A DNA stretch of 5,347 nt from Lentisphaerota bacterium (GTDB lineage: Bacteria > Verrucomicrobiota > Kiritimatiellia > RFP12 > UBA1067). Shown piece by piece: positions 438-4,554 of this stretch; position 1 is the stretch's first letter; each line of letters begins with the position of its first letter. The stretch lies in assembly GCA_022839525.1 (NCBI GenBank), contig JALHET010000159.1:700-6046 (forward strand), given 5' to 3'. A program made the translations under genes and the position numbers. Below the pieces are notes generated by a model, which was not told the DNA's origin, searched no databases, and was given only the letters and a program-made list of their open reading frames with translations.

Positions 438-2192
438 ATGTCCCGAACCAAACAGATGTTAGCCTTCGATATCGGCTCCCGTTCCGTGCGGGCCGTCTGG
501 GTGGGGCTGCGCGGCGGCCGTCCGGCCGTAATGCGCGCGGAAACCTTCGCCCTGCCGCTGGACGAGGAGGAACCCCACAAACTCATCAGCGCGTGGGCCG
601 ACAAGCTCGGCATCGCCAAACACTTCTGCGCCATTGCCCTGCCGGGATCCCAGGCCGTTTTCCAGAGCGGGCGCATCATGCACAACGACCCGCGCACGCC
701 CGAACAGGTCGCCGCCATCGACATCGCCCAGTTCAACGAGATGGCCGGCGATGAGATGGCGCATGACGTCTTCGCGTTCGAGACCCCCTTCGAAGCCGGC
801 GTCCGGCGTTACATCATGTCGATGGCGCGCCCCGCCTCGATCCAGGAGGTCATCCAGGCGACCCGCCGCAACCACCTGCGCCCGTCCGACCTGATCGCCG
901 CGCCGGTCGCGCTGTTCAACGCGCTGGAGGCGTTCGCCGGCGCGCACGAAGAGCCGTACTGTTACGTGAGCATCGGCCACACGCAGACCGAGGTCGCGGT
1001 CGGCATCAGCGGCGGGCTGCTCTTCGCGCGTTCCCTTGCGGCGGGCGGCAAGCTCTTCACGGATGCGGTGGCCCAGTCCACCGGCCTGCCGGCCGTGCAG
1101 GCCGAAGTGCGCAAACATGTCGATTGCGGACTGCGCGAGAGCGATGCCTGCTACGAGCCGCTGCGCCTCGCGGCCGACCGCTGGGTCTCGCAGTTCAACG
1201 CCTGCATGGGCGTTTACCGCAGCACGTTCCAAGACCGGAAATTCACCGTCGCGCGCATCATCATCACCGGCGGCGGCGCCCAACTCAAGGGACTCAAGGA
1301 GTATCTCGCCGCCAAGCTGTTCATGCAGGTGCAACACGTCTCGGAACTGCCGGGTATCGACAGCGCTTACCAGCCGTATGCGGGCGTCTACGACTTGGCC
1401 TTCGGTCTCGCGCTCACCGCCCTCCACGTCGGCACCACATACCTCTCGCTCCTGCCCGGAGACCTGAAAGACGAGGTGGTCTTCCGCGCGAAGAAACCGT
1501 GGTGGATCGCCGCGGCCGTCTTTCTGCTCGGTGCCATGGCCCTCTACTCCGCCACCGGCGTCGTGCTCCTGCGGCGCGACAACGCCCAGCTCGACGAGGT
1601 GCGCGACCTGCTCCGTCGACGCGAGCAGATCGACAAACGCATTCAGGATCTCAAGCTGCTCGGCGCGCACACCTTGACCAATTCGATGCCGCTTACAAAC
1701 CTCCTGCTAAACGGCCCACTCGCCCGAGAAGTGCTCTCGCTGGTGGCCTCCACGGTCGACCCCAACGACTGGATCACCCTTTTCTGCGACGAGAATCTCT
1801 ACACCCCGAAAGAGCAGGAAAACGAAACCAAAAAACCTACGCCGCAGACGGCCGCCCGAAACCCCTTTTCCCTTTTCCGCACGCTCCGGCAGGCTCCGCC
1901 CGCAACGGGGAAGCCTGCCGCCACTGCGGCGGCAGGTTCCGCAGCCACCCAGAAGAAAGACCTTCCCGACCCGCTCGCGTCGGTTTTCATCGTGGAGGGC
2001 TACACGCCCACCGTCAGCCTCAAAAGCGTCCGGGAAATGATCGAGCGGCTCAAAACCTCCCCGGAGATCGCACGCGTGGACCTCCGCAGCGACGACCAGG
2101 TCTTTGCCCCCACCGGCATCCCCGAATTGGAAACGGAAAAAGTCCCCAACTTCCGCCGTTTCGTGATCGAGATCGAAGTGAAGCGACTATGA
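438..2192 (+). CDS. pilM: PilM-PilN fusion: actin-like ATPase joined to inner-membrane PilN domain
   Basis: Inner-membrane alignment-complex protein of a type IV pilus-like machine, 584 residues, against about 350 for a usual PilM. Residues 1-330 are a PilM/FtsA-like actin fold: phosphate-1 motif AFDIGSRSVRAV (9-20), phosphate-2 region YVSIGHTQTEVAV (176-188) and adenosine motif IIITGGGAQLKGL (274-286). All look intact, so nucleotide binding is likely. Residues 335-341, YLSLLPG, resemble the INLLP peptide with which a separate PilN docks onto PilM. One membrane segment follows at about 355-378, then a charged coiled-coil helix (380-407), an Ala/Pro/Thr-rich linker (about 455-512), and a ferredoxin-like PilN-type end (515-584: VFIVEGY, SVREMIERLKTSPEIARVDL, FVIEIEVKRL). 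No start codon is seen near the junction, so the fusion is genuine in this sequence. The topology matches T2SS GspL, but GspL has generally lost ATP binding. ATG 438 abuts a repeat array; Met7 at 456 is an alternative start. Confidence 0.9.
   Translation: MSRTKQMLAFDIGSRSVRAVWVGLRGGRPAVMRAETFALPLDEEEPHKLISAWADKLGIAKHFCAIALPGSQAVFQSGRIMHNDPRTPEQVAAIDIAQFNEMAGDEMAHDVFAFETPFEAGVRRYIMSMARPASIQEVIQATRRNHLRPSDLIAAPVALFNALEAFAGAHEEPYCYVSIGHTQTEVAVGISGGLLFARSLAAGGKLFTDAVAQSTGLPAVQAEVRKHVDCGLRESDACYEPLRLAADRWVSQFNACMGVYRSTFQDRKFTVARIIITGGGAQLKGLKEYLAAKLFMQVQHVSELPGIDSAYQPYAGVYDLAFGLALTALHVGTTYLSLLPGDLKDEVVFRAKKPWWIAAAVFLLGAMALYSATGVVLLRRDNAQLDEVRDLLRRREQIDKRIQDLKLLGAHTLTNSMPLTNLLLNGPLAREVLSLVASTVDPNDWITLFCDENLYTPKEQENETKKPTPQTAARNPFSLFRTLRQAPPATGKPAATAAAGSAATQKKDLPDPLASVFIVEGYTPTVSLKSVREMIERLKTSPEIARVDLRSDDQVFAPTGIPELETEKVPNFRRFVIEIEVKRL
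1887..1936. repeat. G+C-rich palindrome cluster inside the PilN linker
   Basis: Three mutually complementary blocks lie in the coding sequence of the PilM-PilN fusion: CGGCAGGCT (1887-1895), AGCCTGCCG (1912-1920) and CGGCAGG (1930-1936). The right pair forms a perfect nine-base stem, CCTGCCGCC (1914-1922) with GGCGGCAGG (1928-1936), around a five-base loop. The left pair forms a nine-base stem around 16 bases. The two hairpins compete for the middle block. The region encodes the low-complexity linker (about residues 484-500, PPATGKPAATAAAG), where an in-frame insertion would be tolerated. It could be a REP/RPE-like palindromic element captured in a gene, or a by-product of Ala/Pro/Gly codons in G+C-rich DNA. 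The exact nine-base arms favour an element, but I see only one locus. Confidence 0.5.
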
Positions 2193-2197
2193 AAAAT

Positions 2198-2232
2198 GGG
2201 TTCTGGTTCCTGGTTTCTGGTATCAGGTGAGA
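2198..2232 (-). repeat. Short heptad array in reverse orientation before the IVP gene
   Basis: Five seven-base units in phase: GGGTTCT, GGTTCCT, GGTTTCT, GGTATCA, GGTGAGA. On the minus strand these read TCTCACC, TGATACC, AGAAACC, AGGAACC, AGAACCC, the same NNNNNCC family as the other arrays (AGAAACC is also a unit of the 347-437 array, and TGATACC recurs at 4467-4531). It begins six bases after the pilMN stop codon at 2190-2192. It is the only array in the window pointing against transcription. Confidence 0.8.
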
Positions 2233-2245
2233 ACCGAGTTGTGCG

Positions 2246-2677
2246 ATGATTAAGAACTTTGAAGAGATTGAAGCGTGGCAGTTGGCCCGTGAATTGACAA
2301 AGGTGGTCTACGCCATTGCCAAAACACCTGCTTTTGCCCATGATTTTGGTCTCCGCGACCAGATCCGCAGGGCTTCAGTCTCGATCATGGCCAATATAGC
2401 CGAGGGTTTCGAGCGTGATGGCACAAATGAGTTTATCCAGCATCTCTCCATCGCCAAAGGTTCGTCCGGAGAAGTCCGTTCGCATCTCTATGTCGCATTG
2501 GATGCCTCTTACATCGACCGGCAAACTTTTGATTCTCTGTTCTCACTTTCCGTGAGCATTAGTAAACTGATCGCCGCGTTTATCACTCATCTCAAGAACT
2601 CACCTTTGAAAGGCTCGAAGTTCAACCGCCCACGAGACCTGTCACCTGAAACCTGTCACCTGTCACCTGAAACCTGA
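2246..2677 (+). CDS. Four-helix-bundle protein, 23S rRNA intervening-sequence protein (IVP/S23) family
   Basis: Small cytoplasmic helical protein of the family first noted in intervening sequences of 23S rRNA genes, related in fold to the Avd accessory protein of diversity-generating retroelements. Its biochemical role is not established. Family hallmarks are FEEIEAWQLARELTKVVYAI (5-24), the signature GLRDQIRRASVSIMANIAEG (35-54) followed by FER, and FIQHLSIAKGSSGEVRSHL (63-81). The family fold ends near residue 118, which fits the usual length of about 115-125. Residues from about 130 on (DLSPETCHLSPET) are translated from the downstream heptad array, which also supplies the TGA stop at 2675-2677; this tail is probably accidental. 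The start at 2246 is the only one giving the conserved N-terminus; no strong ribosome binding site is visible. No rRNA, reverse transcriptase or variable repeat lies nearby. It interrupts a pilus operon and is lower in G+C than its neighbours, so lateral arrival is likely. Confidence 0.92.
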   Translation: MIKNFEEIEAWQLARELTKVVYAIAKTPAFAHDFGLRDQIRRASVSIMANIAEGFERDGTNEFIQHLSIAKGSSGEVRSHLYVALDASYIDRQTFDSLFSLSVSISKLIAAFITHLKNSPLKGSKFNRPRDLSPETCHLSPET

Positions 2678-2702
2678 AACCTGAAACCTGAAACCTGAAA
2701 CC
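2638..2702 (+). repeat. Tandem heptanucleotide array, nine units plus CC, overlapping the IVP gene end
   Basis: Nine perfect-phase units: CCTGTCA, CCTGAAA, CCTGTCA, CCTGTCA, then CCTGAAA five times, closing with CC (65 bases). In the NNNNNCC reading the phase runs on in degenerate form as TCTCTCC (2703-2709) and CAAAACC (2710-2716), then CT and the pilO ATG at 2719. The array overlaps the last 40 bases of the IVP reading frame and provides its stop codon. The five identical units at 2666-2700 suggest recent expansion by slippage. Confidence 0.93.
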
Positions 2703-2718
2703 TCTCTCCCAAAACCCT

Positions 2719-3495
2719 ATGTCCTTCTCCAATCTTCATGTCCAACCGGTCTTCCGGCTATTATCGACCGAACGCATGCAGGTCGTCTTCATCCTGCTTT
2801 TCGTCCTCTTCAGCGCCTTTCTCACCGTGCGCCTCGTTGTGCTCCCCCAGCGCGAGCTGGCCGAAAACAACCGCATGGTGCGCGAGCAGCTCGAGCACAG
2901 CCGCTATGCCAACCTCTCGCTGATGAATATGCAGGTGATCGCCAACCACGAGTCCGCCAACCTGGCCGCGCTCTCCAACGAGTGGTTCCGTATCGCGGAA
3001 CGCCTCGCCACCTTCCCGAATCAGGGCGAGCTGCGCCATGCCGAAGTCAACCGCATCGATTACAAGGTGCAGCTCTACGAGATCCGCCAGCGCCTGCAGG
3101 CCAAATCCGACGAGCTGAAAATCCGGCTCATGCCCACCGAGCTCGGCCTCGACGAAACCGTCGCCAGCGGCGATGTCATCCGGGTGCGCATGTTGCAACT
3201 CAAGGCTGTTGAAAAGCTCGCGGACCTCACGCTCGACCGGCAAATCCAGCGGCTGGTGGAGATCTACCCGCTCGCGCCGGTCGAGCACAAAGACAACAAA
3301 GGGCGCCGGACGTTCGAGGAATACCCGGTGCGCATCGAGTGCGACGTGGACTTCGAGCACCTGTTCACCTTTTTCCAGTCCGTTTTTGAGGAGGGTCAGG
3401 TTTTCGTGTTCAGAAACCTGCGTATCGAGTCGGGACCCACGTTCGACTCCAAGCTGCGCGTAAAGGCCATCCTCTCCGCGCTCCTGTTTGAATGA
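2719..3495 (+). CDS. pilO: PilO-like inner-membrane alignment protein
   Basis: A 258-residue bitopic protein in the position of PilO (GspM in type II systems), which pairs with PilN in the periplasm and passes contact on to PilP and the secretin. Its short cytoplasmic N-terminus (1-20) is followed by one membrane segment at about 21-42 (VVFILLFVLFSAFLTVRLVV) and a heptad-like charged helix (about 44-64). Longer helical stretches follow (85-135 and 155-182). The C-terminal alpha/beta section (about 200-258: EYPVRIECDVDFEHLFTFFQ, VFVFRNLRIESG, LRVKAILSALLF) has the look of the PilO ferredoxin-like fold. Sequence similarity to textbook PilO is weak, so the call rests on topology, fold pattern and neighbours. 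The single-membrane-segment, coiled-coil, PilO-like layout is comparable to Amuc_1100 of Akkermansia (317 residues), but I cannot test homology here. ATG 2719 is chosen because it precedes the membrane segment with a normal spacing; no Shine-Dalgarno sequence precedes it. Confidence 0.72.
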   Translation: MSFSNLHVQPVFRLLSTERMQVVFILLFVLFSAFLTVRLVVLPQRELAENNRMVREQLEHSRYANLSLMNMQVIANHESANLAALSNEWFRIAERLATFPNQGELRHAEVNRIDYKVQLYEIRQRLQAKSDELKIRLMPTELGLDETVASGDVIRVRMLQLKAVEKLADLTLDRQIQRLVEIYPLAPVEHKDNKGRRTFEEYPVRIECDVDFEHLFTFFQSVFEEGQVFVFRNLRIESGPTFDSKLRVKAILSALLFE

Positions 3496-3525: not shown

Positions 3526-3603
3526 CTCACACAAAGGCACAAAGGACACAAAGATTTTCATGGCACCCCATTCTCCTTCGTGGCCTTCGTGCCTTCGTGT
3601 GAG
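3526..3603. repeat. Imperfect 28-base inverted repeat (CACAAAGG type) between pilO and pilP
   Basis: The left arm at 3526-3553 begins CTCACACAAAGGCAC and the right arm at 3576-3603 ends GTGCCTTCGTGTGAG. Across 28 paired positions the arms match except at four sites, where the left arm has A in place of the right arm's complementary G (three times) or C (once). The spacer is 22 bases (3554-3575). Each arm is internally repetitive (CACAAAGG-like units on the left, CCTTCGTG-like units on the right). Repeats of this CACAAAGG/CACGAAGG type are familiar in environmental bacterial genomes. Transcribed, it would form a long hairpin ending 16 bases before the ribosome binding site of the next gene. 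Lacking a T-run, it is not a standard terminator. Confidence 0.85.
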
Positions 3604-3629: not shown

Positions 3630-4466
3630 ATGGACAACCTCTGGAAATGGATCATGCGCCTTAACGCCACGGCGTTCTGCCTCGTGGCCATACTCTTTTT
3701 TGCGGGGGTCGCCGGCTTTTGCGCCTGGCAATACACGCACCCGCCCACACCGGTCAAAGACGGCGGCGACGGCAAACCGCCCGAGCCCGTCCCTGCCTGG
3801 GACATTGGGATCCTCGACTTCGTCACCAACCAGTTAACCGCCGAAACCCTTACGATTCCTGTCGATCCTTTCCGCCCCACCATCGAGGCCATCTTCACCA
3901 ACGAGACCGAGCGGGCCGCTTTCCTCAAAGCCCTCAAGGCCGCCCAAGCCGCGGCCGCCGGTATCGCGGAAGGCGCGGGAGGCGCCAACGCGGCGGGCGC
4001 AAAGAAAGAGGATCCCTTCGCCAACTTGCGGAAAAAAGCCTCTGTGCCTAGCGGACTCGTCGGCCCGAACGGCAGACCCATGGTCATCCCCAAGCTCTCT
4101 TTCATGGGTTTCTTCCAACGCCCGGACGGCAAACAGGCCGCCCTTTTCTACGACTCCGCCGAAAACACCACCGTCTTCTATGATGCGGGCAAACAGATTC
4201 ACGGCGTGGACATCCTGAGCGCCAACGTGCGCGAGGCTGAGATCCGCTTCCCGGACGGGACAACCCGTAAACTGGAAATCGGCGGCTCCGTCGAGCTCCC
4301 CCCCGAACCCGCAAAAAACCCGCCGAAAAAGGTAGTGCCCGCCAAACCCGCCGCCGGTAAACCGGGGCCCGCTGCAGGAGGCAAGGCCGATGCCAAAAAG
4401 CCGAAGCCCGCGCAAAAGAAAGGCCTCCAGAAAAAGGCCGCCCCTCAAAAGAAAGCCGCCCAGTAA
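3630..4466 (+). CDS. PilP/GspC-like periplasmic linker with Lys/Ala/Pro-rich tail
   Basis: A 278-residue bitopic protein in the PilP position, expected to join the PilN-PilO complex to the secretin. It has a short cytoplasmic start (1-12) and one membrane segment (about 13-33: ATAFCLVAILFFAGVAGF). A proline-rich linker (36-56) leads to a DPFRP motif (79-83). An Ala/Gly-rich helical section (97-125) and a second DPF (128-130) follow. A compact beta domain at about 151-224 (MVIPKLSFMGFF, AALFYDSAENTTVFYDAGKQ, EIRFPDGTTRKLEIGG) matches the strand pattern of the PilP/GspC homology region. The last 54 residues (225-278) are nearly all Lys, Ala, Pro, Gly and Gln, with QKK and KKAA repeats, strongly basic and probably disordered. 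Unlike typical PilP, there is no lipobox: the N-terminus is a membrane anchor, as in GspC. Assignment rests on topology, the beta pattern and context. The AAAGGA site sets the start. Confidence 0.68.
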   Translation: MDNLWKWIMRLNATAFCLVAILFFAGVAGFCAWQYTHPPTPVKDGGDGKPPEPVPAWDIGILDFVTNQLTAETLTIPVDPFRPTIEAIFTNETERAAFLKALKAAQAAAAGIAEGAGGANAAGAKKEDPFANLRKKASVPSGLVGPNGRPMVIPKLSFMGFFQRPDGKQAALFYDSAENTTVFYDAGKQIHGVDILSANVREAEIRFPDGTTRKLEIGGSVELPPEPAKNPPKKVVPAKPAAGKPGPAAGGKADAKKPKPAQKKGLQKKAAPQKKAAQ

Positions 4467-4531
4467 CCTGAAACCTGTCACCTGTCACCTGACACCTGAT
4501 ACCTGAAACCTGATACCTGAAACCTGATACC
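4467..4531 (+). repeat. Tandem heptanucleotide array, nine units plus CC, before the ATPase gene
   Basis: Begins on the base after the TAA stop at 4464-4466. Units are CCTGAAA, CCTGTCA, CCTGTCA, CCTGACA, CCTGATA, CCTGAAA, CCTGATA, CCTGAAA, CCTGATA, then CC: 65 bases, the same length as the array at 2638-2702 but with a different order of variants. The NNNNNCC phase continues as TTCAACC (4532-4538), CCAGTCC (4539-4545) and CTTGTCC (4546-4552), then CT and the ATG at 4555. No Shine-Dalgarno sequence is visible. Confidence 0.93.
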
Positions 4532-4554
4532 TTCAACCCCAGTCCCTTGTCCCT

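Follow-up and report, generated by a model that had tools for sequence, protein, structure and literature searches.

A probable mobile element composed of an IVP gene and opposed heptad arrays in a Kiritimatiellae pilus operon

In the 5,347-nucleotide stretch of Lentisphaerota bacterium DNA analysed here (the window), a segment of about 0.5 kb (2196-2703) is very probably one copy of a mobile element, in which opposed arrays with a unit of 7-8 bp enclose an IVP gene and of which the intervening sequence (IVS) of 23S rRNA genes is one case. The comparisons described below demonstrate the association of such arrays with IVP genes, the co-inheritance of arms and IVP, the occurrence of several copies within one genome, differing occupancy of orthologous sites, and purifying selection acting on the IVP gene. 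Related elements are present at unrelated loci, as is typical of transposable elements.

The element in the pil operon

The window covers a Kiritimatiellae pilus operon (Table 1); among named homologues, the PilMN protein is closest to one of a Kiritimatiellae MAG (86% identity). The name PilM is backed by Pfam. The names pilO, pilP, pilB and gspD are presumptive labels that we assigned by position in the operon; the pilO product has no Pfam family. The IVP ORF has 143 codons, and PF05635 (23S_rRNA_IVP), found at 115.6 bits against a curated cut-off of 33.8, is the sole Pfam domain of the protein. The neighbours of the IVP gene in the window are PilMN and the protein without Pfam match. No Rfam family matched the window. 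The AlphaFold model of the IVP protein has a mean pLDDT of 91.3 (about 60 at residues 121-140), and in a Foldseek search its best matches are the S23p structures 2GSC and 2RLD (E 2.2e-05, TM by target 0.92), followed by Avd, 4DWL (TM by target 0.84, E 0.03), and by 8UB7. Both the domain match and the predicted fold agree with the preliminary description of this DNA, in which a four-helix-bundle IVP gene had been placed between pilMN and pilO. The drop in base composition inside the segment, also claimed there, was confirmed: GC content is 49.1% in the IVP domain, 64.9% in pilMN and 59.8% in pilO, and GC3 is 0.56, 0.84 and 0.84, respectively.

Table 1. Features of the pilMN-pilO region of the window
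Feature	Position	Strand	Remarks
pilMN, upstream host gene	438..2192	+	PilM_2 40.1 bits (Pfam); 140 homologues at E <= 0.001
ATGA closing pilMN	2189..2192	+	Seen by eye; probably what remains of the ancestral pilO start
Left arm, GG-type heptad array	2196..2230	+	Pairs with 2663-2695; inverted to further arrays of the window too
IVP gene, S23p-type, four-helix bundle	2246..2677	+	PF05635 at residues 6-110
Right arm, CC-type heptad array	2637..2703	+	TRF period 7/21; 2663-2695 pairs with the left arm
pilO (named by position), downstream host gene	2719..3495	+	N-terminus unlike that of insert-free relatives

The two arrays are approximate inverted repeats, as had been proposed: the best alignment of the two arms, between 2198-2230 and reverse-complemented 2663-2695, has 27 of its 33 columns complementary (6 mismatches, score 36). 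The right array contains the final codons and the stop codon of the IVP gene. Among the pairs listed (25 of 32), the left array has its inverted partners in CC-type arrays elsewhere in the window and not in 2637-2703. An arm score of at least 36 was also reached by 11 of 654 control ORFs. The score of the window is not extreme because its genome is rich in arrays, and the weight of the arm match comes from the family-wide test presented below rather than from this score. In the predicted fold of the transcript (2186-2722) the arms do pair, as anticipated, but the fold is only modest in comparison with shuffled sequences (z -1.67, 5 of 100 as good).

Other arrays are present in the window. A single CC-type array at 378-437 reaches the pilM start codon, and another, at 4465-4532, lies just 5' of the start codon of the pilB-like gene; at the sites orthologous to both, relatives have arrays of different units. 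Contrary to the earlier claim, the left arm is not the only reversed array, since the gap between pilO and the next gene contains a second opposed pair, recognised by eye, at about 3526-3553 and 3576-3603 (CACAAAGG and CCTTCGTG), gene-free and with a unit of 8-9 nt. At the loci of relatives, this pair is present in L002 and L003 and missing from L001.

We retrieved 19 loci that contain the orthologous gene, and 18 of them reach the pilMN-pilO junction (L019 stops inside pilMN). An IVP gene is found at the junction in two of the 18 (L001 and L002) and is lacking in the other 16; for the window's own IVP lineage, the pil site is the only one known. At the loci inspected (L004-L007, L009, L010, L014 and L016) the pilMN stop and the pilO start overlap or nearly overlap, and in the insert-free L004-L007 pilO begins, as judged by eye, where the window has ATGA. 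Since the window keeps this ATGA before the left arm and starts pilO at a new place, the former start of pilO was probably the point of insertion. In L003, which lacks the IVP gene, the same junction is occupied by an opposed hairpin with a different unit (GTTACAG type) and a strong RNA fold (z -4.18; none of 200 shuffles as good). In a tree of pilMN plus pilO, L003 is the sister of the IVP-bearing L002 (support 100/100), and for this reason loss of the IVP gene in L003 seems likelier than a site that was never filled. The simplest history would be one gain before the window and L001-L003, followed by a loss in L003 that left the hairpin behind; a second gain at pilMN-pilO is a less simple possibility. 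The alignment with relatives, which had been suggested as a way to demonstrate insertion, established that the gene is not universal, but the history of the site is not that of a plain empty site, given the hairpin in L003.

Arms and IVP genes across the family

IVP genes above the cut-off were found in 9 of 10 genomes of relatives. Opposed arrays recur on their flanks, with a unit that varies from locus to locus and agrees between both arms of a locus. The arm score used here is that of a local alignment between the upstream flank and the reverse complement of the downstream flank. In a first set (44 of 54 unique IVP matches, 7 partial domains and 3 short flanks being omitted), 33 of the 44 IVP genes scored 32 or more, compared with 16 of 654 other ORFs of the retrieved loci; mismatched IVP flanks did so in 47 of 1892 combinations. 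In a fresh set with one locus per genome from the class of genome G003 (28 of 30 domains scored), 17 of 28 scored at least 32 and 25 of 28 at least 24. Among plasmid regions of Cyanobacteriota, Bacteroidota and Pseudomonadota (12 regions hand-picked from the 20 records listed, of 26 in all, 11 of the regions being scored), 10 of 11 scored at least 29.

An enlarged set comprised 159 of 166 unique domains from sampled genomes of the window's phylum and from plasmids of three other phyla. A score of at least 32 was found at 112 of these 159 IVP loci versus 72 of 4740 mismatched arm pairs, and at 16 of 159 in the direct-orientation control. By set, the fractions were 3/3 (pil), 29/39 (first genomes), 16/27 and 31/40 (class), 14/20 and 10/20 (phylum, the second being the weakest set) and 9/10 (plasmids). 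Forty-seven of the 159 loci scored below 32 and 18 below 24, some of the low scorers having short matched heptads. The genomes are mostly drafts, in which binning errors are possible. Thus, other IVP genes are flanked by matched opposed arrays, as the preliminary description had suggested; the two observations that it had named as speaking against an element, universal vertical presence of the gene in relatives and array-less IVP genes elsewhere, were not made, the gene being carried by 2 of 18 loci and the arms being recurrent.

The period of the arm repeats and the sharing of arms were analysed at the 124 of 159 loci with an arm score of at least 28, as were the arm mismatches discussed below. 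The period is 7 in 93 of the 124 and 8 in 24. Arms were shared by 22 of 22 pairs of loci whose IVPs are at least 80% identical, by 29 of 35 at 70-80%, 47 of 127 at 60-70% and 27 of 370 at 50-60%, and by 2-3% of the pairs at lower identity. For IVPs that are at least 65% identical and come from different genomes, arms are shared in 75 of 108 pairs; for unlike IVPs (<50%) within one genome, they are shared in 1 of 82. On this comparison, the arm unit tracks the IVP lineage and not the host genome. The flanks of 116 pairs were compared, of which 86 have unrelated flanks, 23 have a shared flank and 7 are undecided. With IVP identity of at least 65%, arms are shared in 54 of the 86 pairs with unrelated flanks, including pairs between a Nostoc plasmid IVP and IVPs of the Kiritimatiellae class sample, and in all 23 of the shared-flank pairs.

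Genome G001 has three copies (L058, L059 and L060) on different contigs, with IVP domains 93-96% identical, and their alignment stops at the array ends. Only the pair L058-L059 passed the flank test, as the upstream flank of L060 is too short. Inspection of these three copies by eye revealed no target-site duplication. On either side of each IVP copy there is a whole hairpin with a similar loop. We had considered that solitary hairpins sharing this loop exist elsewhere in G001; this idea was dropped, as the six loops found in 231 kb all adjoin the three IVP copies. One further such loop is found in another genome (L083). The claim that the segment is a small mobile element is supported by related elements with shared arms at unrelated loci. 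The IVP protein's Pfam content and genome-level count correlations identified no mobilising enzyme.

The dN/dS ratio of the IVP gene is 0.00-0.33 in 13 pairs, with dS saturated in several of them. As judged from these ratios, the IVP is under purifying selection.

Insertion sites and gene-less hairpins

Outside the pil operon, IVP genes are found within several other gene rows. At L028, an IVP gene lies between an S1-domain gene and the tyrosyl-tRNA synthetase gene. Among 22 tyrS loci of the family, not all of which have the S1 gene on the upstream side, one has the IVP. At least 5 of the 22, as judged by eye, have different, IVP-less hairpins, and one of these 5 belongs to a relative with 98.5% identity in the protein. 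At 20 loci of a VWA-domain gene, which we take to be bat, IVPs are present at two distinct junctions, a hairpin only is present in 3 (downstream of the gene, by eye), and many loci are clean. Because IVP, hairpin-only and clean states are mixed at the tyrS and VWA sites, turnover at such junctions appears to be fast. At some orthologous junctions (pilMN-pilO in L002 and L003; upstream of tyrS in L232 and L233) the hairpin stays and its unit differs, which plain cut-and-paste transposition does not predict.

On plasmids, IVPs were found within cas6-cas4, cas10-cmr3 and suf gene rows. Three cyanobacterial plasmid loci (L142, L144 and L148) have heptad-armed IVPs that separate cas6 from cas4 or cas10 from a Cmr3 gene. 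In the available text of PMC10910872, IVP is listed beside CRISPR adaptation modules; such a listing may reflect insertion.

What opposed arrays enclose was surveyed twice. The first survey covered 0.83 Mb, partly selected for IVP content, and gave 30 opposed periodic pairs. All 10 pairs with a spacer of 250-700 nt have an IVP inside, whereas none is present in the 19 pairs with a spacer below 250 nt, nor in one pair with a longer spacer. Five of these 19 short-spacer pairs are flanks of IVP copies and were counted as such because the G001 loops all adjoin the three IVPs. The second survey covered 1.07 Mb retrieved for other genes or randomly. An IVP is inside 7 of the 8 pairs with a 250-700 nt spacer, four of them previously known (L001, L002, L232 and L266) and three new (L263, L279 and L328); the eighth pair is in an IVP-free genome, within a run of several hairpins and with no convincing gene. 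The 13 pairs with a spacer below 250 nt again hold no IVP. The short gene-less opposed arrays at similar sites look like ORF-less or decayed forms of the element, and they resemble ORF-less short IVSs or MITE-like hairpins in lacking an IVP at spacers below 250 nt and in lying, in some cases, at shared junctions.

Relation to known systems and possible mechanism

The preliminary description had proposed that the segment shows the architecture of rRNA IVSs outside rRNA, and two findings support this. First, a 23S rRNA gene on an Azospirillum lipoferum plasmid (L150:292-3330; Rfam LSU, 2520.7 bits) contains an IVP with 36-nt heptad arms of GGACAGA type. Second, according to the available text of PMC4990558, the Coxiella 23S IVS has three tandem GACAGAT heptamers by the ORF (upstream of it), terminal inverted repeats and excision by RNase III. 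The feature table of the Azospirillum plasmid lists nothing over the 23S rRNA gene stretch. In 23S IVSs of Coxiella and Leptospira, an IVP ORF is likewise flanked by inverted arms. Nevertheless, elements of the window type sit between protein genes, the arm unit of extra-ribosomal elements varies with the IVP lineage, and there are often several copies per genome. The window element, located between pilMN and pilO and not in a 23S rRNA gene, would work like an IVS though it is not a 23S IVS. A search of ten IVP loci with Rfam found no rRNA and one tRNA (L058). The Coxiella ORF was deemed expendable in the portion of PMC4990558 available, in contrast to the purifying selection on the IVP seen here. 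The same portion of that 2016 paper calls the functionality and origin of 23S IVSs unclear, and describes an IVP-family protein of Xanthomonas as a pentamer. IVP is also named in the context of CPR rRNA in the available text of PMC11270868.

Heptamer repeat arrays are also known from other bacteria, for example as the STRR of cyanobacteria. The arrays of Xanthomonas (GGGAATC), Beggiatoaceae (TAACTGA) and Geobacter, as far as their descriptions were available, are similar to those reported here in having a period of 7 and in being largely intergenic. Opposed heptamer pairs in Xanthomonas are given as 70 and 75 cases in the available part of PMC4692102. The terms 'four helix' and 'S23' are absent from the main text of PMC4692102 and PMC4679880, as is 'four-helix' from the Geobacter heptamer paper PMC2700814. 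In the open-access literature, to the extent that its text was available, we found no account of extra-ribosomal IVP genes flanked by matched heptad arms, and an earlier description is possible. Phage records gave no IVP protein match, and a search of viral contigs with an alignment of closer IVP relatives gave 50 pattern matches and no relative.

On the favoured reading, arms and IVP gene move as a unit among unrelated loci, plasmids and phyla. They settle in narrow intergenic gaps within operons or, in some cases, inside 23S rRNA genes, and there they are the IVSs. Given lineage-specific arms and a selected, Avd-like protein in a mobile element, we infer that the IVP reads the arms: it may recognise its own heptads, either as a hairpin or as a tandem array, and could be the specificity factor of the element, the strand-transfer enzyme being supplied in trans. 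By analogy with rRNA IVSs, the transcript is expected to be cut by RNase III, which would be a consequence of the arms and not the cause of their maintenance. Taken further, the IVP could define a new class of mobile elements as their sequence-specific recognition protein, with each IVP lineage building and reading its own heptad and with 23S IVSs as a minor niche. Opposed arrays with one unit at the two ends would then be formed if the 7-8 nt unit were added repeatedly, in a telomere-like manner, to each 3' end of the DNA in transit. This extension is doubtful and is offered tentatively.

One candidate for the supply in trans is a hairpin-reading, REP-type HUH Y1 transposase. PF01797 (Y1) is matched in all 21 genomes with at least 8 IVP matches, and in the class-wide genomes (G003, G011-G066) IVP and Y1 counts are correlated (rho 0.49; 0.38 after correction for genome size), unlike those of the control DDE_Tnp_1 (rho 0.19, p 0.15). 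However, this correlation may reflect the overall load of mobile DNA, a Y1 match is missing in 3 of 44 genomes with at least 3 IVP matches, and arrays are rare at Y1 loci: in same-class loci of similar length they were detected at 1 of 30 Y1 transposase loci versus 20 of 29 IVP loci at the middle threshold (3 versus 25 at the lax and 1 versus 11 at the strict threshold). The Y1 transposase was set aside as the mobilising enzyme on account of these rare arrays, and mobilisation by it is considered unlikely.

Alternatively, opposed heptad arrays may themselves reside at operon junctions, IVP genes merely landing or surviving there. The IVP-less opposed hairpins at the shared tyrS, VWA and pilMN-pilO junctions are consistent with this possibility, and the sister relationship of L002 and L003 implies that the hairpin outlasts or precedes the gene. 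IVP-free genomes also have arrays, at 2 of 20 pieces with the middle threshold and 7 of 20 with the lax one. On the other hand, arm units match the IVP lineage across genomes and are not shared within a genome, related IVPs at unrelated sites keep the arm unit, and near-identical copies take their arms along to other loci. In addition, arrays are few in the first contigs of 20 IVP-rich genomes (3 lag-7 arrays in 243 kb versus 1 in 352 kb of IVP-free genomes), although these numbers are too small to decide and carry little weight. We regard this explanation as quite improbable.

There is a similarly slim chance that the IVP works, as Avd does, with a reverse transcriptase whose gene lies elsewhere, and that the element moves through RNA. 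The predicted IVP fold resembles Avd of diversity-generating retroelements (4DWL), and an alignment in the available text of PMC10053308 suggests homology of IVP and Avd. In contrast to a diversity-generating retroelement, there is no reverse transcriptase beside the window IVP. PF00078 (reverse transcriptase) has no match in 10 of the 21 genomes with at least 8 IVP matches, these being drafts, and IVP and reverse transcriptase counts are only weakly correlated (rho 0.24, p 0.07). A reverse transcriptase as a necessary partner was rejected for this poor fit.

Finally, it is very improbable that arm complementarity is kept for folding of the transcript (RNase III excision, or insulation or regulation of neighbours) with the IVP as an incidental passenger: although RNase III cuts rRNA IVSs (PMC4990558, as available), the fold of the L003 hairpin is strong and the arms pair in the window transcript, the IVP is under purifying selection and the arms match at L147, an annotated record, even though both neighbours are on the opposite strand. 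Selection on a folded transcript is also unsupported because G.U shows no excess over A.C among the arm mismatches on the sense strand (231 versus 228; bootstrap 44-56%), and the earlier suggestion that the arms act by pairing in the transcript finds no support in this pattern. A count of neighbour strands (28 of 137 downstream neighbours opposite; 43 of 143 in controls) used a crude ORF method and is not relied on, since the method misread at least L002 and L028.

If the segment is a copy of a mobile element, as we favour, 23S IVSs and the stray genes annotated as 'four helix bundle protein' would become one testable mobile element. Such an element would explain the presence of IVP genes within rows of pil, suf and cas genes, and would give a reason for some of the heptamer arrays reported in bacteria. 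It also suggests that the link between IVP and CRISPR genes may be one of insertion. The pairing of arm unit with IVP lineage would, in turn, predict the binding specificities of these proteins.
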